From the NCBI GenBank assembly GCA_031265875.1, contig JAISCA010000057.1, forward strand, positions 1-54,267: a DNA stretch of 54,267 bases. Reading direction: 5' to 3'. A program made the position numbers and the translations under genes. Source of the DNA: Propionibacteriaceae bacterium (lineage in GTDB: Bacteria > Actinomycetota > Actinomycetes > Propionibacteriales > Propionibacteriaceae). The notes under the pieces are model-generated. The model ran no database searches. It worked only from the letters and a program-made list of their open reading frames with translations, and was not told where the DNA came from. Of the stretch, positions 30,252 to 53,512 are shown piece by piece (position 1 is the first letter of the stretch; each line of letters starts with the position of its first letter).

Positions 30252-30286
30252 CGAGAGACCCCGCCCCAGGCCAGTCAGGCCTCTCG
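30252..30286. terminator. Hairpin between convergent lysS and MacB-like gene
   Basis: CGAGAGACC (30252-30260) can pair with GGCCTCTCG (30278-30286) with one mismatch, around a 17-nt loop. It lies 8 bp after the lysS stop and overlaps the end of the converging gene. Confidence 0.4.
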
Positions 30287-32254
30287 CAGAATGCTAGCCG
30301 GATCCCGGTGAGCGGCATGCCAGGCTGGATAAGCCGAAGCGACGATCCCCGTGGCCGCTCCGACAGCTAGTCCGATGAGGACCACCGGCCACCCGAGATG
30401 AAGGGGCAGTGCATACGCCCTCGCCAAAGCCCAGGTCAGAACGACTCCGACCCCGACCCCAAGACTCGCGCCGACCAACCCAGTCCACAATCCCTCCACC
30501 GTGTACATCCTCCATATCGACACCTGGCTGGCCCCTAGAGCCCGTCGCAGGGCGATCTGCGGAGCCCGGTGTGTCACTGTGAGAAACATAGACACGCCAG
30601 CGGTCAGAGCACTAAGGCAAAGAATGACTGCTCCAATAGCCCAAAGCAATTGAGTCAAGTCATGGGTGACAGCTTGTTGGAGTTGAGCTAATTGAGCCAC
30701 CACGGTGACGGTGACTGATCCCGGATTCTCTGGAGACAGCGCCAGGGGAATCGCGGCTTCCAGAGGTTCAGCGTATCCCGGCTGAGTCTTGACCAAGATA
30801 AAACAATCAACCCGGCCAGTCAAGTATGTCGTGGTCGGGAATGACGCATACACGGCATCGTCGAGCAGCACGTCTCCCAGACTCGTGAGAACTGCGACCA
30901 CCGGCACCCTGCGCCCATTGATGACGATGTCCACTCCGACATCCGAGCTGGACACGCCCAACCTCTCAGCCGCCTGCGCTCCCAGCACTACTACTGACCC
31001 CCCCTCCTGGGTATTCATGAGATCGATACGCCCCTGATCAGGAGCCAAGCCCTGGATCGTCAGATAACGAGAGTCCGAGACGATAATCCGCCCGGTGAAA
31101 GACTGCTCCTGGCTCGATCCTAAGCGGGTGATCCGAGTCGAACTCGGTGAGTAGGTTATGACGGGCGCGGTCGCTTCGATACCCTCCAGATCAGCCAGGG
31201 CCTGAGCGGGAGCCGACGAGGAGTAAGGGTCGGTGAACACAGCAGAGTCAACGCGGGAGGAGAAGACGCGTATCTCCGTGCTTCCAGCCGCCGTCAAGCT
31301 TGCAACGATCTGACCGGTCGTTGAACTTGTTAGACCGACCGCGCCCACCAGGGCAGCCACCCCCAGCAGATACGCCAAGACGACCAACAACCACCGGCCC
31401 GGCCTAGCCAGTGGTGCCATGACTGCGTCCTTCAGCTCTAAGCCGAGCCGACGAGATAGCACCCCATCACTCGCCTCATCCCCCGCTTTCTTTCGACGAG
31501 ACTCAGCGTCCACCGAGTGAGCTTGACCGATTTGGGCGGTTCTATTAGATGGAACCACGCCAGCTCGCACTTCTTCGGAGCCGATCAATAAACCGTCGAC
31601 CATCATCACTCGACGGTCAGCGGCTGCTGCCACAACGGGATCGTGCGTCACAACGACGACGGTCACCCCAGCAGAGTTGATTCCCCGTAGATGAGAGACC
31701 AATCTGCGAGAACTCTCCGTGTCAAGCGCACCCGTTGGTTCATCGGCTAAGACAGCATCGGGCCGGATCGCCAAAGCTCGGGCCAGAGACACTCTTTGCT
31801 TTTCTCCGCCTGACAGTGACCCAGCCATTCGATCGATCATGTCACCGAGTCCCACAGTCTCTAGAGCGACCATGACCCGCATAGCCCTAGTACGCCGATC
31901 TATTCCGCGCACTTTGAGCCCCAAAGCGACGTTATCGCCGACCGACTGGTCAGGAAGCACATATGAATTTTGGAAGACGAACCCGAATCGGTGCCCACGT
32001 TCGTGATCACGCTCAGCTTCGCTGAGACTGGACACCTCTCGTCCAGCTAGCGCATAGGCACCCGAAGTCGGACGATCCAACAATCCGACCAGCGACAGTA
32101 GCGTCGTCTTCCCAGATCCTGATGGTCCCACAACGGCCACGAATTCACCTCGCCGGACTCGCAGTGTGGAATCCCTGATCGCCCACTGATCGGATGCCGG
32201 CACGCGGCGAGACAAATGTCTGGCGTCAATTAACAGATCTTCTGTGGTTATCAC
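30275..32254 (-). CDS. MacB-like ABC transporter, ATPase fused to FtsX-type permease
   Basis: The product has 659 residues from a GTG overlapping the preceding stop (GTGA). Residues 1-235 form an LolD/MacB-type ATPase: GPSGSGKTTLLSLVGLLDRP, FVFQNSYVLPDQSV, LSGGEKQRVSLARALA and VLADEPTGALD. After a linker comes a membrane helix (about 285-305), an extracytoplasmic domain of about 220 residues, then three C-terminal helices of the FtsX/MacB permease, ending PAWHAAHRDPASILREA. Such mechanotransmission transporters act with an HlyD-like partner, which is encoded directly upstream, to extrude peptides or sense envelope stress. GC and codon use are clearly lower than in lysS, indicating transfer. 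It closes the four-gene low-GC locus. Confidence 0.9.
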   Translation of the reverse strand: MITTEDLLIDARHLSRRVPASDQWAIRDSTLRVRRGEFVAVVGPSGSGKTTLLSLVGLLDRPTSGAYALAGREVSSLSEAERDHERGHRFGFVFQNSYVLPDQSVGDNVALGLKVRGIDRRTRAMRVMVALETVGLGDMIDRMAGSLSGGEKQRVSLARALAIRPDAVLADEPTGALDTESSRRLVSHLRGINSAGVTVVVVTHDPVVAAAADRRVMMVDGLLIGSEEVRAGVVPSNRTAQIGQAHSVDAESRRKKAGDEASDGVLSRRLGLELKDAVMAPLARPGRWLLVVLAYLLGVAALVGAVGLTSSTTGQIVASLTAAGSTEIRVFSSRVDSAVFTDPYSSSAPAQALADLEGIEATAPVITYSPSSTRITRLGSSQEQSFTGRIIVSDSRYLTIQGLAPDQGRIDLMNTQEGGSVVVLGAQAAERLGVSSSDVGVDIVINGRRVPVVAVLTSLGDVLLDDAVYASFPTTTYLTGRVDCFILVKTQPGYAEPLEAAIPLALSPENPGSVTVTVVAQLAQLQQAVTHDLTQLLWAIGAVILCLSALTAGVSMFLTVTHRAPQIALRRALGASQVSIWRMYTVEGLWTGLVGASLGVGVGVVLTWALARAYALPLHLGWPVVLIGLAVGAATGIVASAYPAWHAAHRDPASILREA

Positions 32255-33390
32255 ATGCCACTCACGACGACTGTTGAACCAACAACCAATTCCTGATCAT
32301 CATTCAGAATGGCGTATCCCGAGGCTTGACCGATCAAAGAGACGTCGACCCTGTGAGCATGGTTCAAAATCTGTGGAATGGCAGACGTACCGCCCCCACC
32401 AGGAGTCACTTCAACGAGAGTGTCCAGGAGCCAAACGTACATGGACGTGCCGTCGCGTCGAATGGCAGTCAATGGCACCGCAGGCGCTTGAGCCACGGTT
32501 TCTGTATCAGTTATGGTCGCAGGTGCCCCAGATACCGCCGGAGAAGTGGCGTCAGAAGGGACAGGAACAGTTATGTCATACCCGGGCGGCATCCCTTGGA
32601 CGCCTTCCTGATAATCACTCACCAAGGTGACTGTTCCCGAGAAATGTGGACCATCCACAACCTCCACATCTACCGTCGCCCCCACTTTCAATATAGACGA
32701 CTGCAACATGTCGACGCGGGCTATGACGACAGCCTCTCCTATTTCGACTATGACAATGGGATTATCCGGATCAATCATCTGACCAACGGCTCCGGCAGAG
32801 GTTACTAGGGCAGGAACTCCAGACAAACCCACCGTCCATGACATGGGCAGATAGTGGCTGTCACCCATTTTCGGCAGTTGATAACCAAGCGATGTATATA
32901 GCGCTACCAAAGTTCCCATCGTGCTTACACCGAGTCGGCCCGTCGGAGCTGCAGACGTACGTCCCATATCAATGAGAGCCTGCTGCAAAGCCGTCACATC
33001 GGCACCTGTCATGCCCACAGCTAAGTCACGATACAACGGCACCGACGACGGGAAAGCCACTACGGGGACGCCCGAGATCTCCGCTACTAGGCTTCCATAA
33101 CCGATCAAATCTCCAACGGCATGGGCTCCGGCTGTTATCACATCGACGCCTGTGCCAAACTCTCCCCGCGGCATAACCGCCGTCTGGGCCGGATTCAACA
33201 CTTGGCCTGACACGACACATGGATCACGCACAGGTCGCGATTCCACTTGAGCCGTGATCATTATGTCTCGTGTCGCATTAGTGATTGGTGAATGATCCAC
33301 CGGACCGTGGAATAATGCCATCGCCAGCGCTCCACAAACAGACCCGAGCATGAGAGCAAGGATCATGATCAGAATGTTCGTGCGTTTCAT
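32251..33390 (-). CDS. HlyD-like periplasmic adaptor with peptidoglycan-binding-like segment
   Basis: I chose the ATG at 33390 (MKRTNILIMILALMLGS); a TTG at 33414 would add 8 residues. The 379-residue product has an N-terminal membrane anchor or signal. It then shows a region resembling peptidoglycan-binding domain 1 (about 115-165, LAVGMTGADVTALQQALIDM), inserted where HlyD-like adaptors carry their hairpin. Beta-barrel-like strands follow (VVIARVDMLQSSILKVGATV, VSDYQEGVQGMPPGYDITVP, PAVPLTAIRRDGTSMYVWLL). This architecture accompanies MacB-like transporters in Gram-positive bacteria. Its stop overlaps the transporter start, so the two are coupled. GC is low compared with the surroundings. 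Confidence 0.82.
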   Translation of the reverse strand: MKRTNILIMILALMLGSVCGALAMALFHGPVDHSPITNATRDIMITAQVESRPVRDPCVVSGQVLNPAQTAVMPRGEFGTGVDVITAGAHAVGDLIGYGSLVAEISGVPVVAFPSSVPLYRDLAVGMTGADVTALQQALIDMGRTSAAPTGRLGVSTMGTLVALYTSLGYQLPKMGDSHYLPMSWTVGLSGVPALVTSAGAVGQMIDPDNPIVIVEIGEAVVIARVDMLQSSILKVGATVDVEVVDGPHFSGTVTLVSDYQEGVQGMPPGYDITVPVPSDATSPAVSGAPATITDTETVAQAPAVPLTAIRRDGTSMYVWLLDTLVEVTPGGGGTSAIPQILNHAHRVDVSLIGQASGYAILNDDQELVVGSTVVVSGM

Positions 33391-33438
33391 GATAGCGGAA
33401 CTCAGTTTATTCAATCCGGCTCTTCGCCTAACAAAGCT

Positions 33439-34326
33439 TCAGAGAACTCCGACCTCGCGCAGGATTCCCTCAGCCCTGGCTACCCGATCATCCGCTATTC
33501 GACGGATCTCAAAAAGTTCTGCTTCATGCTGATCAATCATTTCTAGCTGGTAAGTCGCCATTATGTTTCCAGCGGTTTGAGTCAAAGATATCTGATCGTT
33601 GCAAGTAGCCTCTGCCAGCTTGACTTTTAGCACCTGTTCGTCTGACCATGACTGATCTGTCACGAATCCCCCTCCGCTTGAGTTCGGTAGTGTTTGATAT
33701 CCTTGTGACTCTCCGCATGATCGTAATTCACCGAGGAGACGAGCGTACTCAGAACTGTTGAATGTCCGCATGTATGAGTCAGCGTTAAGAATCGCTATGA
33801 GTTCTACTCGATCCTCCCCAGGATTAGTGATCGTAATGAGTCCCATGGAGATATAAGATTCCGCTTGCACGCAGCGTTCAGCTGTAATCGGATCCGCGTC
33901 AACGTACACCGGAGCGGGAGCGTCATCAGGGAATGGTTTCCAACCATTCTTAGCGACAAAAGTGGCATCCCAAATACCAAATAACCAATGAGTGGCCTCT
34001 GGATCTGGGACGACCGGAATCAGCGCTCGCCTAGCCTCGCTAAGGACTTGATCGCTAACAGATTCTGAACCAATCACACACCGCGCAAATTCAATACTAA
34101 GCGCAGCTCGAACGAGCCTCTGCTCCGCGAGATCCATCCCGTACTCATCCAACGGTAACGTAATCGTCGCATTATCCCAATCGAGCATAGCTCGACCCGA
34201 CCCACTGATTACACCAGACGACTCGCCTGCCGGCTCATCCCCAGCCACAGTAGGAGAGCAAGAACTACCGAACAAAAGTGCGATAGCTAACAGCGTCCCG
34301 CCGCCCCTCAGCGTGCGACATGACAT
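33439..34326 (-). CDS. Putative lipoprotein of unknown function
   Basis: The product has 295 residues. The N-terminus (MSCRTLRGGGTLLAIALLFG) is followed by SSCSPTVAGDE; the Cys could be lipidated, although the lipobox (GSSC) is imperfect. The mature part is acidic with five further Cys and contains LPLDEYGMDLAEQRLVRAAL, a disordered SSGGGFVTDQSWSDEQVLKV and a C-terminal helical coiled region (EMIDQHEAELFEIRRIADDR). I recognise no family. It lies 48 bp before the adaptor gene and 51 bp after the small secreted protein, so it is probably part of one operon. A role as substrate receptor or immunity factor is only a guess. Confidence 0.8.
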   Translation of the reverse strand: MSCRTLRGGGTLLAIALLFGSSCSPTVAGDEPAGESSGVISGSGRAMLDWDNATITLPLDEYGMDLAEQRLVRAALSIEFARCVIGSESVSDQVLSEARRALIPVVPDPEATHWLFGIWDATFVAKNGWKPFPDDAPAPVYVDADPITAERCVQAESYISMGLITITNPGEDRVELIAILNADSYMRTFNSSEYARLLGELRSCGESQGYQTLPNSSGGGFVTDQSWSDEQVLKVKLAEATCNDQISLTQTAGNIMATYQLEMIDQHEAELFEIRRIADDRVARAEGILREVGVL

Positions 34327-34377
34327 GCGCTACCTCTTCAAACTCGTCCTGAGGCTAAATCCTACCAAGCCGGAACC

Positions 34378-34791
34378 CTACACTGTGCTGCAGTATCCCT
34401 TCCAACTCTCAAGATTATCGTTGTACGATGCACTTAAACCATTCATACCCGAAGAGGGACTTAACGTGAGTCTAAGTCCCGTGAATAACTGGTTGGTCCA
34501 AGCATACTGAACAGTGCTGCGATTGTTATAAAGTGAAGATATTACGTTATTCCATGATCCGAAATCCTGTAGTTGGCAGTCCCCTACGGCATTTCCAGAA
34601 TTAGTCATAGTCCATCGTGACCCGATATAACAAGTATCAGTCCACCAACAGGTCAATGCTCCACTGTTGTAACAAGGACTAGGTGTACACGTCCCCTCCG
34701 CGGCTTGTGCTGAACCTGAGTTAGATCCAACGAGAGCTGCAGCGCAAAGCGCTGCAGCGAGCGAAGCGACGATTCCTCTTCTGATTCTCAT
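34378..34791 (-). CDS. Small six-cysteine secreted protein, I36 inhibitor/crystallin-like
   Basis: Three in-frame starts exist (GTG 34800, ATG 34797, ATG 34791); TAGAGA lies 9 nt before the last, which I chose, giving 137 residues. The signal peptide (MRIRRGIVASLAAALCAAAL, ending GSAQA-AEG) is clear. The mature chain of about 104 residues has six Cys, enough for three disulphides: four near the N-terminus (CTPSPCYNSGALTCWWTDTC) and two later. Its second half (DFGSWNNVISSLYNNRST, then SASYNDNLESWKGYC) resembles the beta/gamma-crystallin-like strands of peptidase inhibitor family I36. It heads the low-GC transporter locus and could be the exported effector or bacteriocin-like product; this is inference. 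Confidence 0.8.
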   Translation of the reverse strand: MRIRRGIVASLAAALCAAALVGSNSGSAQAAEGTCTPSPCYNSGALTCWWTDTCYIGSRWTMTNSGNAVGDCQLQDFGSWNNVISSLYNNRSTVQYAWTNQLFTGLRLTLSPSSGMNGLSASYNDNLESWKGYCSTV

Positions 34792-34888
34792 GACCATCAC
34801 TCTCTATCACAACGTTAACCAAGCGACCATCGATTGGCTCCGAATCTGTGAGACTGAGCTTGAAACACAAGATTTCTTTATTCAGTAC

Positions 34889-34918
34889 ATTATAAGTCCG
34901 TCCTGCGGATCGTGTCAA
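34889..34918 (-). promoter_or_regulatory. Perfect consensus promoter for the secreted-peptide locus
   Basis: On the minus strand, TTGACA (34918-34913) and TATAAT (34894-34889) are separated by 18 bp. Both hexamers match the major-sigma consensus exactly, which is uncommon in this GC-rich genome. The predicted start near 34882 would give a leader of about 90 nt before the ATG at 34791. The -35 box lies 9 bp from the outer end of the adjacent insertion sequence. Confidence 0.8.
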
Positions 34919-34927
34919 CCGCCCGAC

Positions 34928-36338
34928 GTGCCTCACGAGAAATGCCCGCGAAAGGTTCCCCGTGCCTCAGATAAAAATGCCCGCGAATGGCGGGCACGAT
35001 CCGAGGTATGGGAAGCAGGTTGTCGATGGCGGCTCGTGCGGAGATCACGGCGAAGTACGCCAGGGCGTACGCGAAGGCGTCGAAGAAGGACAAGGGCCGG
35101 CTGTTGGACGAGGTGGTCGCGGTCACGGGGTGGTCGCGGGACAACGCCAGGCGCCGGATCGCGAAGGCTGCTAAGCCCCGGCCTCGCGCGGTGGGCGAGG
35201 CCCGCAAGCCGCGGGCGCGGAAGTACTCCTACGACGCGACGAAGACGCTGCAGAGGGTGTGGGCGTTCGCGGGGTTCGAGTGCGGGAAGTACCTGGCCGC
35301 CGCGATGCCCGCTCTGCTGGACGCGCTGGAGCGTCACGGCGAGCTCGTGGCGGGCAAGAACCGGTACTCCAGCTCGGCGCGCGCCGAGCTGGAGGAGATG
35401 AGCCCGGCGACGATCGACCGCTACCTCGCCCCCGCGAGGGCGAAAGACCCGCTCCGGGGCATCTCGACGACGACGCCTTCGCCGCTGCTGCGTTCCTCGA
35501 TCCAAGTCCGCAAGGCCGGTGACGAGGTCGAGGACACCCCGGGGTTCTTAGAGGGCGACACCGTCGCGCACTGCGGGCCGACGATGAAGGGCGAGTTCTG
35601 CCGGACTGTGAACCTGACCGACATGCGCACCGGGTGGGTCGTCACCCGCTCCACCCGCAACAACGCGCACCTGAACGTCCTGGCCGCCCTGCGGCACGCG
35701 GTCGAGCAGGTCCCGTTCGAAGTCACCGGGCTGGACTTCGACAACGGAAGTGAGTTCATCAACCACGACGTCATCGGCTGGGCGGCGGAGCGGAAGATCT
35801 TCTTCACCCGCTCCCGCCCCTACAAGAAGAACGACCAAGCCACGATCGAATCAAAGAACGGGCACCTCGTGCGCCGTTACGGCTTCTACTGGCGCTATGA
35901 CACCCCCGAGGCGCTGACCCTGCTGAACCAGCTCTGGCCGCTGGTGAACGACCGGCTGAACTTCTTCACCCCGACGAAGAAACCCATCGACTGGTCGACC
36001 GACGCCGCCGGACGCCGCAAACGCGTCTACGACGACCCGAAGACCCCGTTCGACCGGCTCCTCGACGCCAGAGTGCTGTCCCCGATCCAGGAAACCGCGC
36101 TCCACGCCCGGCGAGACCGGCTCAACCCCGCCGATATCGCCCGCCGCGTCCAGTCCATCCAGGACCGGCTCACCGGCCTGGCCCGCGACCAGACCCTCGC
36201 CCTCCAAGCCGCGACCGCCACGACCCTGCCGGACACCACCCGCGGCGTCAAGCTACGCCCCGCGAGCTGACCCCAGTCTCACCGGCATACTTACGTGAGG
36301 CACGGGAACCATTTCGCGGGCATTCCTACATGAGGCAC
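34928..36338 (+). mobile_element. Complete insertion sequence 1, DD(35)E transposase type
   Basis: About 1.41 kb, ending left at GTGCCTCAC (34928) and right at TGAGGCAC (36338). Each end carries two motif copies: GTGCCTCA at 34928 and 34962 on the left, and TGAGGCAC ending at 36303 and 36338 on the right, that is 34- and 35-bp periods. Each copy is followed inward by an ATGCCSGYGA-type block. CCGCCCGAC occurs just outside on the left (34919-34927) and again 4 bp beyond the right end (36343-36351). It may be target duplication or a preferred target. The element contains a single transposase gene. Confidence 0.85.
34987..36270 (+). CDS. DD(35)E transposase with rve-type catalytic core
   Basis: The product has 427 residues from the first ATG; a later start such as MGSRLSMAARAEI is possible. 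An N-terminal helix-turn-helix region (KKDKGRLLDEVVAVTGWSRD, NARRRI) precedes the catalytic core. The acidic residues are Asp in FLEGDTVAHCG, Asp in GLDFDNGSEFIN and Glu in NDQATIESKNG, with 35 residues between the last two, the classical DD(35)E spacing of rve/retroviral-integrase-like transposases. The C-terminal part has a basic DNA-contact region (PTKKPIDWSTDAAGRRKRVY). It is clearly homologous to the transposase at 36397-37683. The reading frame is intact, so the element may be active. Confidence 0.93.
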   Translation: MAGTIRGMGSRLSMAARAEITAKYARAYAKASKKDKGRLLDEVVAVTGWSRDNARRRIAKAAKPRPRAVGEARKPRARKYSYDATKTLQRVWAFAGFECGKYLAAAMPALLDALERHGELVAGKNRYSSSARAELEEMSPATIDRYLAPARAKDPLRGISTTTPSPLLRSSIQVRKAGDEVEDTPGFLEGDTVAHCGPTMKGEFCRTVNLTDMRTGWVVTRSTRNNAHLNVLAALRHAVEQVPFEVTGLDFDNGSEFINHDVIGWAAERKIFFTRSRPYKKNDQATIESKNGHLVRRYGFYWRYDTPEALTLLNQLWPLVNDRLNFFTPTKKPIDWSTDAAGRRKRVYDDPKTPFDRLLDARVLSPIQETALHARRDRLNPADIARRVQSIQDRLTGLARDQTLALQAATATTLPDTTRGVKLRPAS

Positions 36339-36351
36339 CTCGCCGCCCGAC

Positions 36352-37751
36352 GATCCTCAGAAGTAATGCCGGTGTAGCGACGGTCGTGCCTCATAAGTGA
36401 TTGCACGCTTGGCCGGGACGCTGAAGGGCATGGATCGAGGGTTGTCGATGGCGACACGGACAGAGATCACGGTGAAGTACGCCAGGACGTACCGGACCTC
36501 TTCGAGGTCGGATCGGTCGCGGCTGCTGGATGAGGTCGTGGCGGTGACCGGGTGGTCGCGGGACAACGCGCGGCGGCGGCTGTCGCAGGCGACGCGCCCT
36601 CGTCCGGCGCGCACCAGGCCGGGGCGACCGCGGAAGTGCTCCGGGCCGGCGCTCAGGGTCCTGGAGCAGGTCTGGGCGGTCAGCGGCGGTAGCTGCGGCA
36701 AGTACCTGGCGCCGGCGATGGAACCGCTGCTGGATGCCCTGCGACAGCATGGTGAGCTCGTGGAAGGCAAGCGCGGCTACGACGCCGAGGTGCGCGCTGA
36801 GCTGCTGGCGATGAGCCCAGCCACGATCGACCGCTACCTCGCCGACGCGAAGGCCCGTGGCGCGTTGAAGGGCATCGGCGCGACCAAGCCCGGCACGCTG
36901 CTGCGCGACTCGATCACGGTCCGCAAAGCCGGGGACGAGGTCGAAGCCGAGCCCGGGTTCTTCGAGGCCGACACGGTCGCGCACTGCGGCCCGACGCTCA
37001 AGGGCGAGTTCGCCCGCGCCGTGAATCTGACCGACATGGTCACCGGGTGGGTCTTCACCACCGCGATCCGTAACAACGCCCGCGTCCACATGCTCGCCGC
37101 GCTGGAACGCGCCCTGACGGCGATCCCGTTCGAGGTGGCCGGCCTGGACTGCGACAACGGATCCGAGTTCATCAACCACGACGTGATCGGCTGGGCCGCC
37201 GGGCGGGATGTCTACTTCACCCGCTCCCGGCCCTACCGCAAGAACGACCAAGCCACCATCGAGTCCAAGAACAACCATCTGGTGCGCCGCTACGCCTTCC
37301 ACTGGCGCTACGACACACCCGAGGCTCTAGCGCCGCTGAACCAGCTCTGGCCACTGGTCAACGACCGACTGAACTACTTCACCCCGACGAAGAAGCCGAT
37401 CGGATGGACAACCACCACCACCGGGAAACGCCGCCGGATCTACGACAGCCCACGCACCCCGCTGGAACGACCGCTGGCCGCCGAGACGCTCTCACCCGCG
37501 CAAGCCGCCCAGCCGCGTGCTCGCCGCGCCACGATCAACCCCGCCGAGCTCGCCCGCGACATCCAACGCATCCAAGACAAGCTCACCGGACTGGCCAAAC
37601 GCCCCACCCAAGACCTCGCCGACAGCCTCGTCAAACCGCTACCCGACACCCGTCGCGGCGTCCGCACCCGCCACACCGCCTGACCCACACCACACGGGCC
37701 TCCACTTATGAGGCACGACCCCGCCCACGCGGGCACTTGACAATGAGGCAC
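36352..37751 (+). mobile_element. Complete insertion sequence 2, related to element 1
   Basis: About 1.40 kb. The left end carries GATCCTCA (36352, a degenerate outer copy) and GTGCCTCA (36386), 34 bp apart; the right end has TGAGGCAC ending at 37716 and 37751, 35 bp apart. It begins 13 bp after element 1 ends, with CCGCCCGAC immediately before it. The same double-end design as element 1 shows common ancestry, but internal sequences differ enough to be a separate species rather than a recent copy. Confidence 0.83.
36397..37683 (+). CDS. DD(35)E transposase, second related copy
   Basis: The product has 428 residues, with the start possibly internal (MDRGLSMATRTEITVKYART). The catalytic residues are in FFEADTVAHCG, GLDCDNGSEFIN and NDQATIESKNN, again with DD(35)E spacing. 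The helix-turn-helix part (SRLLDEVVAVTGWSRDNARR) and the region LNQLWPLVNDRLNYFTPTKK are shared with the first transposase; divergence is spread along the protein. The frame is intact. Presumably both elements use similar ends, so cross-mobilisation is possible. Confidence 0.93.
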   Translation: MIARLAGTLKGMDRGLSMATRTEITVKYARTYRTSSRSDRSRLLDEVVAVTGWSRDNARRRLSQATRPRPARTRPGRPRKCSGPALRVLEQVWAVSGGSCGKYLAPAMEPLLDALRQHGELVEGKRGYDAEVRAELLAMSPATIDRYLADAKARGALKGIGATKPGTLLRDSITVRKAGDEVEAEPGFFEADTVAHCGPTLKGEFARAVNLTDMVTGWVFTTAIRNNARVHMLAALERALTAIPFEVAGLDCDNGSEFINHDVIGWAAGRDVYFTRSRPYRKNDQATIESKNNHLVRRYAFHWRYDTPEALAPLNQLWPLVNDRLNYFTPTKKPIGWTTTTTGKRRRIYDSPRTPLERPLAAETLSPAQAAQPRARRATINPAELARDIQRIQDKLTGLAKRPTQDLADSLVKPLPDTRRGVRTRHTA

Positions 37752-37772
37752 CGCGCCGCCGCGCCTCCCGAC

Positions 37773-38127
37773 GTGCCTCACGTAGTTTGAGCGCGAGTGT
37801 GGGGTCGGCGCCTCAGACACTTTGAGCGCGAAAGCCTTCGGGCTGAGGCTTGCCCGGGTGGAAGGCAAGATCCCGATGGCCGCTAGACGACAGGTGACGA
37901 AGAGGCTCCGAGGCGCTCACGCCAAGGCGTCGAAGAAGGACAAGGGCAGGATCCTGGACGAGGTGATGGACACGACCGGGCTGGCCCGGTCGTCGGCCAG
38001 GCGGCTGCTGACCGGCCCCGTGCCACCCGACCCGGCCGTCCGGGTGGATCGGCGCAGGCCGCGCCCCAGGGGGTTCGACGACGACGCCAGGAGGCTGGAC
38101 GAACCGCCGCATCGGGCCGAAAGGTAG
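37773..38127 (+). pseudogene. Remnant of a third related insertion sequence (left end and 5' transposase fragment)
   Basis: GTGCCTCA at 37773 and GCGCCTCA at 37808 (35-bp period), each followed by TTTGAGCGCGA, form a left end of the same design, 21 bp beyond element 2. A frame from 37822 then encodes the N-terminal part of a transposase (VTKRLRGAHAKASKKDKGRI, then DTTGLARSSARRLL). Homology stops near 38100, before any catalytic Asp, and the frame ends at 38127. The right half was lost when the thioesterase gene side was joined. Confidence 0.82.
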
Positions 38128-47434: not shown

Positions 47435-50400
47435 ATGAGCGAGGACCAGCCGGTCCGGCCCTCGGGGAGGCGGAGCGGCCGAGCCCGTTCCCGCGACCCC
47501 GAGGCCGGAGGCGACCGGGCGTCCCGCTCGGGCCGGGCCGATCCCACCGGGCCAGCTGCGGCCGACTCCAAGCGGACCAGCTCGGACCCGACGGCGGCCG
47601 GGCCGTCCGCCGCTCGATCGTCTGGCCGCCGCACGGTCGCTCCCACCGGCGCGACCGCGTCCGATCGGGGCGTCCGCCGCGTCGACGGAACCGGCGGGCA
47701 ACGCCAATCCCGCCTGAATTCGCGCCTGACCCGACCTAGCCCGGCCAGACCCCCGGCCGCCGCCGAGTCAGCTCCCCCGGCTCCCCCGGCTCCCGAACCG
47801 ACGATTTCCGAGCCGAGCCTGGTCGCTCCGCTCCCACCTGACCCGAGCCAGACTCCAGCTCTGGCCAGCCCGGCCGCTCCAGAACCAACGACCGGGCTGG
47901 AACCAACGCCCGGACTGGCACTAGCTGCCCCGGACCCAGCCTCCGGCCCAGACGAAACGGTCGCTTCCGATCGAGTGATCGCCGCTGAGGCCGATCCGGC
48001 CCTCTGGACCGCTCCGGCCGACCAGGCCGCTCCCGCCACCGACGAGGTTGGACCGGCCTTCGTAGCCCCGGCCGGACACGGGCTCGGACCCAGCTTCGAG
48101 GCTTCGGTCGGTTCGGGCGGACAGTCCCCCGACGAGCCCCCGACAGCGGCCGAACCCACCTCCGAAGCTTCGGTCGGTTCGGGCGGGCTCTCCCCCGACG
48201 AGCCCCCGGCGACGGCCGAACCCACCTTCGAGACCCCAGCCGCCTTCGAGACGCCTGTCCTCTCCGTCGACTCCGTCCACCCCGTCGATCTCGTTCAGCC
48301 TGTCGACTCGGTCCATCTCGTCGACTCAGTCGCCACCGAGACCTCAGCCGATCCCGGCTACGACCCCACTGCCCGGGTCGGCCTGGCCGGGCTGGGACCG
48401 GAACCCGGCCCGATCACACCGGCCGATCCCAGCCCAATCTCCGAGACGCCCGCTCCCTTCGAGTCCACAGCCGCTCTTGATTACGCTCTGACAAGCCCGG
48501 CCGGACTTGGGCCGGAGCCTGAACCGATCCCTCCAGCGGCGCCCGCGCCGGACGTCAGCGCTCCCCTCGACGGCACGGTCGCTTGGTCCGAGCCCGAAGC
48601 CTGGTCCGAACCCGGCCCGGCCGGACTCGGATCTGAACCGCTCTCGGGCGGCGGCGGACCTGAACTGACTGTCGGACCTGAGCCGACTGAGAACGGAGCC
48701 GTGTCCGGAGCCGAACCAGCCGGCTTCGGACACGGATCGGCCTTCGCTCCGCGAACCGATCCACCGTCGACCGCTGGCTTCGCCCCCGATCCGATCTTGA
48801 CCCCAGAGCCAGCTTTCGGCCCTAGCGCGGCCTGGACCCCAGAACCGACCTTCAGCACTGGTTCCGCCCCGCCGCCGGAGCCGATCCTGCCCGCAGCTCC
48901 GACACCAGCTCTCCAAGCCGTTCCGTCCGAAGCGACCGGCTGGGCTGAGACGTCTGGCCGGCCGGCCGGAGCAGAGTCTTGGGCCGGACCCTCCGACTTC
49001 GGCTTCGCCGGACCGTCGCCCGAGACGGATAGGAGCGGATCCAGCCCAGAGCCAGTCAGTCCCGCTCCTTGGTCGGCCGCCCCAGCCATCGAGACCGGAC
49101 CAACCGAACTGAACCCACTCGCCGGGCCTAGCCCCTGGCCCACCGAGCAGCCGGCTGGCGCCGGCCCGACCGGACCAGCCCCGAGACTTGGGTCAGAGAC
49201 GTCCTGGCCCGACCCCACCCGCTGGGAGACCAGGCCGGCCGTTCCGTGGGCCCAAGATGACAACCGAGTGGTCGAACCTCCGATCAGCGGATCGGACCTG
49301 AGCGCCAGCCGGCCGACTGAGACCGGCCAGGACACCGCCGCGCCCACGGCTTGGTCCGCTCCAGCCGATCAGACCGATGGGCCGCCCGCCGCCCCCAGCC
49401 CGGCTCCCTGGGCGTCAGACTGGCAAGCGGCCGCCGCCCACACCAGCCAGATCTGGCAAATACCGGAGCGAGACCTGGACCAGCTCCGACCGGGCCGCTC
49501 GTCGTCAGCGCCGACTGGACCCGGGCCGGCTGGGACCACCGATCCGACGACCAGACCGACCTGGTCAACCACTCCAGAGCCAACCTGGCCAATCCCACCG
49601 GAGCCGACCCGACCAGCCACACCGGAGCCAACCTGGCCAGCCGCCCCGGAACCGGACCCGACCAGTCAAGCGCCCGACCTCGCCCCCAGCGCCTGGCCCG
49701 TCGTACCAGGCGACCCGTTGGCTCCCCAGGCCGGTCCTGTGAGCCCGGCCGTAGTAGGTAGCACCTGGCCCGTCGTACCAGGCGACCTGTTGGCGCGGCC
49801 CTTCCCCTACCGCCAGACGGACTCACCACTAGCGTCGGCGGACGAGTCCGGCGTCACCACCTGGCCGGCCATGGATCTGGCCGAATCGCTCGGGACGACC
49901 GGTCCCAGCCTGGCTCAGACCCCGGCGCCGTCCCCGCCGTCCCCGCCAGACCAGACCTGGCCAGCCGCCCCCGCGCCGACCTCCACCGACCCGGCCGCCT
50001 GGCCCGGGGCGACTGAACCGGTCGCCTGGCCTGGGCCGACTGAACCGGTCGCCTCGCCCTGGGCGGCGTCGCAGACACCAGGCGAGCCGCCGCTCGCCCC
50101 GGAGCCGGCCGCCAGCCCGCTCCGGCGTCACTTTCCAGAGGACGATCCAGACCGACCGTTGGACCACCCCGTCCCGTTGGACCACCCCGACCCCTCGGAC
50201 CACACAGCCCGGTCTCTGCCCGAGCCAGGGGACGACTCAGACGGCGCCGAGCCGACGGCGCTGGCCCCAGGCGACGCTCTCTGGCGTCGTTTGGGCACGT
50301 TATCGCCGGATCAGCCCGACGCCTTCACCCAGTCACCAGAAGTTCATCCCCCGGACCCCCTAGTCGACACCTGGGCCGGTGACGACGAGGCCTGGGCCGG

Positions 50401-53400
50401 GATCGAAGCCGATCTGCCCCCGACCGACTGGAGCTACCTGTCCTCCGACCAGATCGACGCCGTGGAGGATCTGGGCGAACCGGCCACCTGGCCACCGGTC
50501 TGGTCCACTCCGACCGTTGGTCCAACCTCCGCTCCGACTGTCCTGTCCGGAACCGACTCGACGGACTCGTCCGACCGGTTCAGCGCGACCGCCCCGCCCG
50601 CCGTTCAACCCGGCGGTGCCTCGGCCGGTCCCTTCGACCCGACCGGTTTCCCCGCTGGCGCCGCCTTAGCCGACCCGCCCGAACGGACCGGCCCGGCCCT
50701 CCCACCAGGCTCCGGCCCAATCGCTGGTTCGCCCGACCTAGACAGCTCAGTCGTCCCCTCGGACACCGGCCGGGCCGCCGGATCGCCGGAACCGTCCAGT
50801 CCGGGTGAACCGTCCGACCCCTTCGCGGCAGCTGCGATAACCGGACCGCGCGATCAAATTCCCTGGCCGTCGGACCAACCCGAAGCGAAGCCAACCGAAC
50901 CGGACGCGATCAGCCTGACCGACGGAGCCGGAGAGACTGGTCTCGCCAGCGCAGACGGCCCGACTCGATCTGGGCCGAGCGACCCTGACGGACTGAGCGA
51001 CCCTGACGGACTGAGCGGCCCAGACGACCTGGGCGGTGTCATGAACGCCCTAGACAGCGCCATCGTGAGCGCCCCGCAGGCCGGCGCCGCCGACCCGACG
51101 GAGCCGGCCGATGCGCCTAGAGCCGACCTGATCCCGGACTCGGAGACTGATCTGGATTCGGACGCCCACCCGACCACGATTCCCGGCTCGGGCGCGACCC
51201 CGAACTGGGACACGACACCAGACTGGGACACGACACCCGAGACCGATCCGGGCCAGTCCCCCGCGGCGGACGCTCAACCAGCCACGTCCGGGAGCGAGGC
51301 CGACGAGGCCGACGAGGCCGCCCGACCGGGCGCCCCCGACGTCCAGCCGGCTGAGACCGGCGACTTGATCAAACTCCTGCCCTCCGACGAGGATCTGATC
51401 GAGCAGGGGCTGGCCACTAGACAAGCTGAGTTATTGTCCGGGAGCGGCCCCAAGCGAGCCCTGGTCGAACCCCGGCAGAGCTTCCGCGAACGGCGCGCCA
51501 AGACCAAGCGGGAGAAACGAACCCATTCCCAACAGACGACCTCGACCACCGAGCCAGCGGATGTCCCATCCGAGCCAGCGGAGCCGACTGTCACGGTCGC
51601 GGACGCCACCGCCTCATCGCCTTGGCCCGCCTCAACGGCAGTCCTGGCTGAGACGGCTGCCATCGGCCCGGCCACGGCTTCCGCCACAGATCTGGCCGGC
51701 CACCTGATCGCGCCGGCCGGCTCGGCCACACCCGTCGATTCGGCCGCCTCGGTCGCCCCACCCACAGCGACCGAATCGATCTCATCGACCGGCTCGACCA
51801 GGCTGGGAGACGCGATCGCCCCAGCCCGGCCGGCCGCCAGCGCCCCAGCGGACGCCCTGGCCGAGCCAATCACCGCCACTGGGGAGGACCGGACCGCTCC
51901 AGCTCCGGAGTCGGGCGCCCGCTCCGCTTCCAGCCCGACCGAGCCGACTGGTCAACGGGCCGGCCGTCAGACCAAGCCCAAGCCGAACCGCTTGGCCCGC
52001 GCCAGCTCAGCGACACCCAGCCGGGCGGCCCCAGAGGACGCCTCGGAGACCAAGCCGAGCCGCCGGTCGTCTCGGCCGCCTCGTCCCTCCTCCCGGCCGG
52101 ATCCGGCCGGAGGCCCACCAGACAACTTCGCCCTGGCTTTGCTGGGCCGTTTGGTCCCAGCCCTGGGTCTGCGCCGGGCCGGTTTCAACAAGCTGGCCTG
52201 GCTGGCTTGGTCGGTCCTGCCGATCCTGGCGGCAGGGGCGGCCTGGACCTGGTTCTCCTCCAGCGCCCGCCTGTATCTGTTCTTCTCCGTTGGGTCGCTC
52301 AGGCTGGTCCTAGTCCTGCTGATCGGCTTGGCGCTGGCTTGGTCAGTCGCCCTCTGGCTGATGCAGCGGGGCGCTCGCTCCAGCGGCGGCCGGAGCGGCG
52401 CCGGACGACCCGTCCTGTCCGTCGTCGTGGCCGTCCTAGTCTGCGGCGGCCTGGGCTGGGGGGCGCGACTGACCTACCTTCAGGTCGACGCCTTGGACAC
52501 CGTCTTCGCCAGCGCTGGGCGGCCCGGCCTGGCCACCTCGCCCTTGACCCCGGCCGACATCCTGAGCGCCGAGCGGGTCAACATCATGCTGCTCGGCCTG
52601 GACTCCGGCTTGGGCAACGTCAACCCGACCGGCCCCAAGACCGACACCGTCATGGTGGCCAGCGTCGAGCCGTCGACCGGGCAAACCGTCTTGATCTCGC
52701 TGTCCCGTAACACCGCCCGGATGCCTTTCCCAGTCGGTTCGACCTTGGAGAGCCATTTCCAGAAGGGCTGGTTCGACGGCTCGAACCCGTCCAACCCGGA
52801 CTATTTGCTCGGCGCCATGTACGAAGGCCTGCCCGACAATGTCGACCGCAATCAACTGGGACAGACGGACAACCTGGGCGCGGACGCTTTGAAGCTGTCC
52901 GTCGGCGCCGCCTTGGGCTTACGGATCGACTACTACGTCCTGATCGATTTAGCGGTCATGGCTGATCTGATCGACGCCCTGGGCGGCGTCACCTTGGACG
53001 TCAACCGCCCCATCACGATCCCCGGCGGCCGGATCGAACCTGGCCCGCAACAGCACTTGGATGGGGCCACGGCGGTGGCCTTCACCCGTAGCATCGGGGC
53101 GGGCGACGACTACGCCCGGATGGCGCGCTCACGTTGCGTGGTCCAAGCCGTCCTGTCCCACACCTCGCCCACCGATTTGACGCGCCACTTCATCGACATC
53201 GCCCAGGCCGCCCGCAGCGGCGTCCGCTCCGACATCCCAGTCTCGGCCTTGCCCCAGTTGGTCGAACTGGCCGACCGGGTCCAGCGGAGCGATGTCATCA
53301 GCCTCCAGTTCACCAACAATCAAAATGGTTTCGTAGCCTCGCGGCCCAATTTCCAGCGCGTGGCGGAACAGGTCCAAAGCGCCATCGAGTTGGCCCGCGA

Positions 53401-53512
53401 CCCGGCCCCGGCCGAGCCGGACCAGCCCGACGACTCGGGCAGCATCCGACGGACGGCCGACCCCCGGCCCCTGCCTGAGTTCTGCGCCTTCAACCCCGAC
53501 AGCGATTGGTGA
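47435..53512 (+). CDS. Giant LytR-CpsA-Psr (LCP) family protein with a 1580-residue disordered N-terminus
   Basis: The product has 2025 residues; the ATG follows a good GAGGAGACGGG site, so the long N-terminus is genuinely encoded. Residues 1-1580 are low-complexity, rich in Pro, Ala, Glu, Asp, Ser, Thr and Trp, with internal duplications (EASVGSGGQSPDEPP twice with variation; TWPVVPGDPLA twice; DPDGLSDPDGLSGPDDL; NWDTTPDWDTTPETD). Three membrane helices follow (about 1585-1680), then the catalytic LCP domain (about 1714-1990): VNIMLLGLDSG, TDTVMVASVEPSTGQTVLIS, LSRNTARMPFPVG, DYYVLIDLAVMADLIDALGG and QHLDGATAVAFTRS, with the conserved Arg/Asp positions. LCP enzymes attach glycopolymers to peptidoglycan. 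The N-terminus should be cytoplasmic. Typical LCP proteins have 300-500 residues. Confidence 0.93.
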   Translation: MSEDQPVRPSGRRSGRARSRDPEAGGDRASRSGRADPTGPAAADSKRTSSDPTAAGPSAARSSGRRTVAPTGATASDRGVRRVDGTGGQRQSRLNSRLTRPSPARPPAAAESAPPAPPAPEPTISEPSLVAPLPPDPSQTPALASPAAPEPTTGLEPTPGLALAAPDPASGPDETVASDRVIAAEADPALWTAPADQAAPATDEVGPAFVAPAGHGLGPSFEASVGSGGQSPDEPPTAAEPTSEASVGSGGLSPDEPPATAEPTFETPAAFETPVLSVDSVHPVDLVQPVDSVHLVDSVATETSADPGYDPTARVGLAGLGPEPGPITPADPSPISETPAPFESTAALDYALTSPAGLGPEPEPIPPAAPAPDVSAPLDGTVAWSEPEAWSEPGPAGLGSEPLSGGGGPELTVGPEPTENGAVSGAEPAGFGHGSAFAPRTDPPSTAGFAPDPILTPEPAFGPSAAWTPEPTFSTGSAPPPEPILPAAPTPALQAVPSEATGWAETSGRPAGAESWAGPSDFGFAGPSPETDRSGSSPEPVSPAPWSAAPAIETGPTELNPLAGPSPWPTEQPAGAGPTGPAPRLGSETSWPDPTRWETRPAVPWAQDDNRVVEPPISGSDLSASRPTETGQDTAAPTAWSAPADQTDGPPAAPSPAPWASDWQAAAAHTSQIWQIPERDLDQLRPGRSSSAPTGPGPAGTTDPTTRPTWSTTPEPTWPIPPEPTRPATPEPTWPAAPEPDPTSQAPDLAPSAWPVVPGDPLAPQAGPVSPAVVGSTWPVVPGDLLARPFPYRQTDSPLASADESGVTTWPAMDLAESLGTTGPSLAQTPAPSPPSPPDQTWPAAPAPTSTDPAAWPGATEPVAWPGPTEPVASPWAASQTPGEPPLAPEPAASPLRRHFPEDDPDRPLDHPVPLDHPDPSDHTARSLPEPGDDSDGAEPTALAPGDALWRRLGTLSPDQPDAFTQSPEVHPPDPLVDTWAGDDEAWAGIEADLPPTDWSYLSSDQIDAVEDLGEPATWPPVWSTPTVGPTSAPTVLSGTDSTDSSDRFSATAPPAVQPGGASAGPFDPTGFPAGAALADPPERTGPALPPGSGPIAGSPDLDSSVVPSDTGRAAGSPEPSSPGEPSDPFAAAAITGPRDQIPWPSDQPEAKPTEPDAISLTDGAGETGLASADGPTRSGPSDPDGLSDPDGLSGPDDLGGVMNALDSAIVSAPQAGAADPTEPADAPRADLIPDSETDLDSDAHPTTIPGSGATPNWDTTPDWDTTPETDPGQSPAADAQPATSGSEADEADEAARPGAPDVQPAETGDLIKLLPSDEDLIEQGLATRQAELLSGSGPKRALVEPRQSFRERRAKTKREKRTHSQQTTSTTEPADVPSEPAEPTVTVADATASSPWPASTAVLAETAAIGPATASATDLAGHLIAPAGSATPVDSAASVAPPTATESISSTGSTRLGDAIAPARPAASAPADALAEPITATGEDRTAPAPESGARSASSPTEPTGQRAGRQTKPKPNRLARASSATPSRAAPEDASETKPSRRSSRPPRPSSRPDPAGGPPDNFALALLGRLVPALGLRRAGFNKLAWLAWSVLPILAAGAAWTWFSSSARLYLFFSVGSLRLVLVLLIGLALAWSVALWLMQRGARSSGGRSGAGRPVLSVVVAVLVCGGLGWGARLTYLQVDALDTVFASAGRPGLATSPLTPADILSAERVNIMLLGLDSGLGNVNPTGPKTDTVMVASVEPSTGQTVLISLSRNTARMPFPVGSTLESHFQKGWFDGSNPSNPDYLLGAMYEGLPDNVDRNQLGQTDNLGADALKLSVGAALGLRIDYYVLIDLAVMADLIDALGGVTLDVNRPITIPGGRIEPGPQQHLDGATAVAFTRSIGAGDDYARMARSRCVVQAVLSHTSPTDLTRHFIDIAQAARSGVRSDIPVSALPQLVELADRVQRSDVISLQFTNNQNGFVASRPNFQRVAEQVQSAIELARDPAPAEPDQPDDSGSIRRTADPRPLPEFCAFNPDSDW

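Follow-up and report, generated by a model that had tools for sequence, protein, structure and literature searches.

The window analysed here, the whole 54,267-nucleotide stretch that makes up contig JAISCA010000057.1 (C57) of a 3.1-Mb, 70-contig Propionibacteriaceae genome (GCA_031265875.1), carries four minus-strand genes, read from 34800 to 30275, that encode a small secreted protein, a lipoprotein, an adaptor and a MacB-type transporter. These four genes form a conserved cassette: their relatives lie together in other genomes of the family, the type of secreted partner varies from cassette to cassette, and the divergence of the small protein is correlated with that of the lipoprotein. We tentatively propose that the cassette comprises a secreted effector, a cognate lipoprotein that confers immunity and a MacB-type pump for export and self-protection, a reading to which we give a little less than an even chance.

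Proteins encoded by the cassette

The sequence-only reading of this DNA had described four same-strand genes, and all four open reading frames (ORFs) are indeed on the minus strand. The first (34378..34800) encodes the small protein, whose start is ATG 34797 (139 aa) or ATG 34791. It has a Sec-type signal peptide, called by eye and with a simple script, and seven cysteines, one of which lies within the signal peptide, so that the mature part of approximately 105–110 residues retains the six that had been claimed for it. The sole family match of this protein at E ≤ 1 was Pfam I36 (PF03995; 19.7 bits, E 8e-4), which is under the curated cut-off of 21.1 bits, while relatives from loci L032, L033 and L037 pass it with 26.7, 31.9 and 51.1 bits, respectively. 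The L032 protein is the nearest relative of the window protein (41% identical, BLASTP).

The window sequence alone found no match in the PDB; a profile of 17 sequences, the window's included, matches the betagamma-crystallins spherulin 3a (E 5.5e-9), clostrillin (3.7e-7) and protein S (4.3e-5). Betagamma-crystallins carry two copies of the calcium motif (N/D)(N/D)xx(S/T)S, of which the window protein has one intact copy (NNVISS) and one degenerate copy (NDNLES). Across the 17 proteins, whose rows are related to one another, 25 such motifs were found, with at least one in 15 proteins, compared with an average of 0.9 in all 17 after shuffling. Judged by sequence, the secreted protein belongs with the betagamma-crystallin/I36-like proteins, and the window protein itself would presumably share this fold and form disulfides. 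The question of whether the small protein is homologous to a known factor, raised in the sequence-only reading, therefore has a divided answer: the family suggests a fold and an alternative function, whereas a role has not been established for it. In one further locus (L042 1959-3140, G153), a crystallin-like stretch stands in frame before the lipoprotein within a single 393-residue ORF, which is either a fusion or a frame artefact.

The lipoprotein (33439..34326, minus strand) had been called putative, and its lipobox cysteine, C23, is present, although the window's box (GSSC) is off consensus; relatives have LTAC, LTGC and similar boxes. It matches no Pfam or NCBIfam family, and its predicted model is helical without a clear PDB match. 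A quick tree of 105 rows groups it with the L032 lipoprotein (Shimodaira–Hasegawa-like approximate likelihood ratio test (SH-aLRT) support of 97) within a clade of 23 rows (99). Named relatives of the lipoprotein come from metagenome-assembled genome (MAG) contigs of Propionibacteriaceae or Actinomycetes, and the MAG names presumably point to termite guts. One of these named relatives, the L092 lipoprotein, is a 100% match to that of L041, from a genome of the window's own genus (G108).

The third gene (32251..33414, minus strand) encodes a MacA/HlyD-type membrane-fusion adaptor. A profile of 23 adaptor sequences matches MexJ (2.8e-10) and MacA (1.5e-9; 4dk0/4dk1), while the window adaptor alone scored 12 bits against TIGR01730 (resistance-nodulation-division (RND)/MacA-type) and did not reach its subfamily cut-off of 94.9. 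The peptidoglycan-binding-like insert noticed in the sequence-only reading corresponds to PG_binding_1 (PF01471), matched weakly by residues 136-165 of the window adaptor (14.7 bits, below the cut-off of 23). Among the relatives, the L073 and L074 adaptors pass this cut-off (23.6 and 25.8 bits), those of L032, L035 and L076 are below it, and 20 of the 23 family members match the domain at E ≤ 0.1. It occupies positions 130-177 of the adaptor profile, which we take to be where MacA has its TolC-docking hairpin.

The last gene (30275..32254, minus strand) overlaps the adaptor gene by GTGA, as had been noted, and encodes a MacB-type ATP-binding cassette (ABC) transporter that combines an ATPase (PF00005, 102.1 bits), a periplasmic core domain (PF12704, 66.8 bits) and an FtsX permease (PF02687, 57.8 bits) in one chain, with all three matches above their cut-offs. 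Walker A, LSGG, Walker B and H-loop motifs are present, and residues 4-656 align to the solved MacB structure 5gko (E 3e-63). The protein reached neither the cut-off of the MacB macrolide exporter equivalog NF007826 (224.9 bits against 966) nor that of L_ocin_972_ABC (TIGR03608; 172.3 bits against 254.85).

Conservation of the cassette across the family

As the least biased measure, co-occurrence was counted in 197 genomes of the family, including the window's own, with uniform placement as the expectation and with at most nine HlyD and at most eleven lipoprotein candidates scored per genome. The 146 lipoprotein places collapse into 107 clusters, which are spread over 57 genomes. An HlyD match lies within 3 kb of 50 clusters, where 0.82 were expected; the co-occurrence on which the sequence-only reading depended is thus clearly found. 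Counted from the adaptor side, HlyD places within 3 kb of a lipoprotein account for 48 of 60 first rows, but for 50 of 144 merged places overall. PF03995 is present in 26 of the genomes, and nine of its 35 places, where 0.043 would be expected, have a lipoprotein within 1 kb.

Loci for closer inspection were hand-picked from the match lists. Of the fetched clusters, 60 extend at least 3.5 kb downstream, and in 36 of these the lipoprotein is accompanied by HlyD at up to 4 kb as well as by MacB at up to 6 kb; a crystallin-like gene recognised by profile lies directly upstream in 21 of the 76 clusters with at least 600 bp upstream. The cluster count left out duplicates (L086, L092-L097), short copies (L001-L031, L052-L071) and loci picked through I36 (L134-L137), the small protein (L087) or HlyD (L090); it kept the window and L089, which had been picked through an HlyD match. 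Of 100 lipoprotein genes, 32 are immediately preceded by a gene for a protein of 70-210 residues with a signal peptide; for the other long ORFs of these loci the figure is 19 of 309. Two of the 32 (L051 and L104) look spurious, and some of the 309 ORFs may not be genes. None of 41 HlyD genes has such a small protein directly upstream, which is a weak control because HlyD usually follows the lipoprotein gene, which the script excluded.

The four-gene set of the window type was found in five genomes, namely that of the window and those of L032 (G036), L038 (G115), L041 (G108) and L048 (G049). In L038, MacB is divided into two genes, while in L041 and L048 it is cut by the contig end, and L048 carries a second lipoprotein between members of the set. 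Two single-contig genomes of the family, G163 and G171, have distant versions of the cassette (L073 and L074).

Variation and co-divergence of the partners

The proteins encoded upstream of the lipoprotein are of several types: betagamma/I36, PG_binding_1, weakly Crystall_2-like and unassigned. PG_binding_1 is carried by the secreted partners in L100 (59.0 bits) and L115 (48.9 bits), and the partner in the third cassette of the window's own genome, which lies in L035, resembles Crystall_2 weakly (19.0 bits, below the cut-off of 25). Secreted protein and lipoprotein also occur as pairs without a pump in L043, L108, L110 and L121, as judged by BLAST with the window HlyD and MacB, which is how a two-gene effector-immunity unit would occur. 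The converse arrangement, a lipoprotein and pump without a recognised secreted gene, is found in L034 and in the second cassette of the window's own genome, also in L035.

Pairwise distances were compared over 14 hand-chosen cassettes with a crystallin/I36-type protein, a lipoprotein and an adaptor; those left out included L074 and L125, whose genes are cut or split, L133, which nearly duplicates L081, and the first L073 pair. In these 14 cassettes, small protein and lipoprotein distances are correlated (r = 0.80), and the partial correlation given the adaptor is 0.61, a value that none of 5000 permutations equalled. The corresponding value for the small protein and the adaptor given the lipoprotein is -0.06. 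This contrast suggests that it is the secreted protein and the lipoprotein that interact.

Several loci show more elaborate arrangements. The window's own genome has two further tandem cassettes on contig C56 (L035 9397-17598), the first of which has its MacB spread over three overlapping frames, so that this MacB is possibly disrupted, and four tandem lipoproteins of the superfamily on contig C37 (L098 245-4486), divergent from an HlyD-MacB set and with no secreted partner seen. In G108, C-terminal pieces of MacB are found at contig ends beside other cassettes (L041 4597-4770 and L037 10468-10785), which suggests tandem cassettes or a repeat that breaks the assembly.

Proposed function and alternative explanations

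In the mechanism that we propose, the small protein would be exported by Sec and fold outside the cell as a disulfide-linked betagamma-crystallin-type protein, where it would most likely act at the envelope as a toxic, bacteriocin-like effector of antagonism. The lipoprotein, which is probably an immunity protein, would bind the secreted protein at the outside of the producer's membrane and thereby shield the producer. The adaptor suggests how a MacA-type function could operate without an outer membrane, in that a peptidoglycan-binding domain would replace the hairpin that meets TolC and hold the MacB-type transporter to the wall. The transporter would then drive the secreted protein off the membrane or wall space, which would provide release and self-protection together. 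Of what the sequence-only reading had suggested, an export/immunity module fits the conserved lipoprotein and ABC layout, whereas antagonism by the secreted protein is a step that we infer.

Several results weigh against this proposal. Most PF03995 places in the family (26 of 35) have no lipoprotein within 1 kb, and 68 of the 100 lipoprotein genes are not directly preceded by a gene for a recognised secreted partner, so that the lipoprotein may serve a different purpose, such as sensing or substrate delivery. The distances behind the correlation are large and saturated, and partial Mantel tests are liberal, which, together with the hand-chosen cassettes, may overstate its significance. In five of ten comparisons among five cassettes, conservation is higher for the small protein than for the lipoprotein, most widely between L041 and L038 (59.6% for the small protein against 37.9% for the lipoprotein), and this frequent conservation departs from the textbook fast-evolving effector. 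No plasmid or viral relatives of the lipoprotein were found, so the case for mobility of the cassette is drawn from its composition and the neighbouring insertion sequence (IS) elements. Finally, those proteins of the I36 class that have names of their own are protease inhibitors.

An envelope-stress or antimicrobial-resistance module of the BceAB or MacAB kind is the main rival, in which the lipoprotein would sense or capture a foreign compound for removal by the pump and the crystallin-like protein would be a secreted decoy or wall-binding stress protein, itself non-toxic. We regard this as unlikely but as a serious competitor. Regulators are encoded in a number of cassette loci, with NarL-type response regulators, recognised by eye, in ten fetched loci (L073, L075, L078, L079, L080, L116, L119, L126, L131 and L133) and an OmpR-type pair in four, hinting at a regulation that is absent from the window cassette. 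A stress role would also suit the common occurrence of lipoprotein, HlyD and MacB without a recognised secreted partner, the arrays of lipoproteins beside a single pump in L098, L105, L106 and L107, and the calcium-type motifs, which are in keeping with structural betagamma-crystallins, spherulin 3a and protein S among them. It accounts less well for a window cassette that no regulator gene directly adjoins and whose promoter is perfect and of constitutive type, for polymorphic partners that in the 14 cassettes compared co-diverge with the lipoprotein and not with the pump adaptor, or for the pairs that have no recognised pump.

Two further explanations centre on the small protein. As a secreted peptidase inhibitor of the I36 class, like SMPI, it could protect the cell or its exoenzymes from surrounding proteases and be served by an export pump, which we consider improbable. 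This reading rests on the I36 name, the sole family match of the window protein and one for which relatives exceed the cut-off that the window protein itself does not reach. The match list of the family profile in the PDB (31 sequences) features betagamma-crystallins and names no metalloproteinase inhibitor, an inhibitor would need neither a lipoprotein partner nor a MacB pump, and cassettes of the same layout elsewhere carry PG-binding proteins. Less probable still is that MacB and HlyD simply export the small protein, with the lipoprotein assisting as a chaperone or in docking and antagonism playing no part. The full-length alignment of the MacB-like protein to 5gko and the matches of the adaptor profile to MacA and MexJ favour simple export, for which the reported export of enterotoxin II by MacAB-TolC would be a precedent. 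The host family is monoderm, however, so a Sec-exported protein would already be outside, and pairs of lipoprotein and secreted protein exist without a recognised pump.

Small secreted proteins of the crystallin/I36 type occur here and there in these bacteria, and for the majority we are aware of no settled role. The link of part of them to a lipoprotein and pump offers a function that can be tested and a means of finding the genes of what may be a family of antagonism/immunity pairs. More speculatively, and in our view less likely than not, the cassette could represent a large undescribed class of actinobacterial effector systems, in which an all-helical lipoprotein superfamily is cognate to polymorphic Sec-exported partners, often with a MacB pump anchored to peptidoglycan in place of TolC. 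In that case, some of the proteins that now bear the annotation 'peptidase inhibitor I36' would be effectors of antagonism, each with an immunity dedicated to it.

Relationship to known systems

The open-licence literature, with preprints not covered, yielded no paper that describes the set or that links I36 or gamma-crystallin to these transporters, in agreement with the sequence-only reading, which knew of no described system with exactly this order. The cassette shares with MacAB-TolC the full-length MacB architecture and a MacA-type adaptor profile, but its MacB is not the equivalog and its adaptor has a PG-binding domain; to our knowledge, the cassette's partners are absent from MacAB operons. 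In lactococcin 972-type loci, the bacteriocin is exported by Sec and its gene neighbours a MacB-related ABC unit for export and immunity, whereas the cassette has another secreted protein together with a lipoprotein and an adaptor, and its transporter falls below the L_ocin_972_ABC cut-off. Profile matches place the secreted protein in the fold family of I36 and the microbial betagamma-crystallins (spherulin 3a, clostrillin and protein S), from which the window protein differs in its sub-threshold I36 score, its six cysteines, the retention of one of two calcium-type motifs, and an operon context with lipoprotein and pump.

Two Gram-positive self-protection systems offer functional parallels. 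In the nisin system, as described in the excerpted text of PMC8538875, the lipoprotein NisI binds nisin and the ABC transporter NisFEG expels it from the membrane, which gives the same combination of secreted product, membrane-anchored lipoprotein and ABC transporter. The cassette product is instead a crystallin-type protein with a Sec signal, its transporter is of MacB type with a wall-binding-type adaptor, and its lipoprotein is outside the Pfam and NCBIfam families. YknWXYZ of Bacillus, a membrane-fusion protein with an ABC protein and a MacB-like permease, guards against the self-made SDP toxin (PMC4887032, in excerpt) and is thus a MacB-like Gram-positive pump directed against a secreted toxin of its own producer. 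According to the same excerpts, its ATPase and permease are separate, its toxin is a 42-residue peptide and its adaptor is MacA-like, unlike the cassette adaptor with its PG-binding-like insert; no lipoprotein partner is mentioned there (PMC4887032). By analogy, the cassette may work like NisI with NisFEG or like YknWXYZ, while being a member of neither.

Genomic context

The four genes are best explained as a single accessory transcription unit. Their GC content of 55.2%, compared with 67.6% in the remaining window, bears out the compositional difference already noted, and the cassette is bordered by lysS on one side and a nearby IS element on the other. A consensus promoter, TTGACA-N18-TATAAT (34889..34918, minus strand), matches sigma-70 at 12 of 12 positions approximately 90 bp upstream of the first gene and probably serves the cassette; position 34918, where the sequence-only reading ended the locus, belongs to its -35 box. 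The window holds no second exact match to TTGACA-18-TATAAT (0.00 expected from shuffles), and the three exact matches among 152 loci are all copies of the window's own site.

The IS element next to the promoter (34938..36327, plus strand) lies outside the system and has inverted-repeat ends and an rve transposase (34987-36270). Behind it is a second IS with a related rve transposase (36397-37683) and inverted-repeat ends, and 37822-38127 looks by eye like the remnant of a third copy, so that the IS stretch extends overall from 34938 to 38127.

In G099, the closest relative within the genus by LysS (87-88% identical), the interval between lysS and 4HBT has no cassette and contains an AbiEi/AbiEii toxin-antitoxin pair (59.5 and 73.5 bits; L138 6305-8163) and a PadR gene; we count the presence of this pair in favour of the effector-immunity proposal. 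In G126 (L150 8646-13118), lysS is directly followed by a different HlyD-ABC-FtsX set in another gene order, together with a putative lipoprotein that matches no Pfam family. The lysS interval is therefore variable, and comparison of these three genomes suggests that it is a hot spot. Elsewhere in the window, a 2025-residue ORF (47435-53512) has a very long Pro/Ser/Thr-rich N-terminal part and a C-terminal domain that by eye is of LytR-CpsA-Psr (LCP) type.

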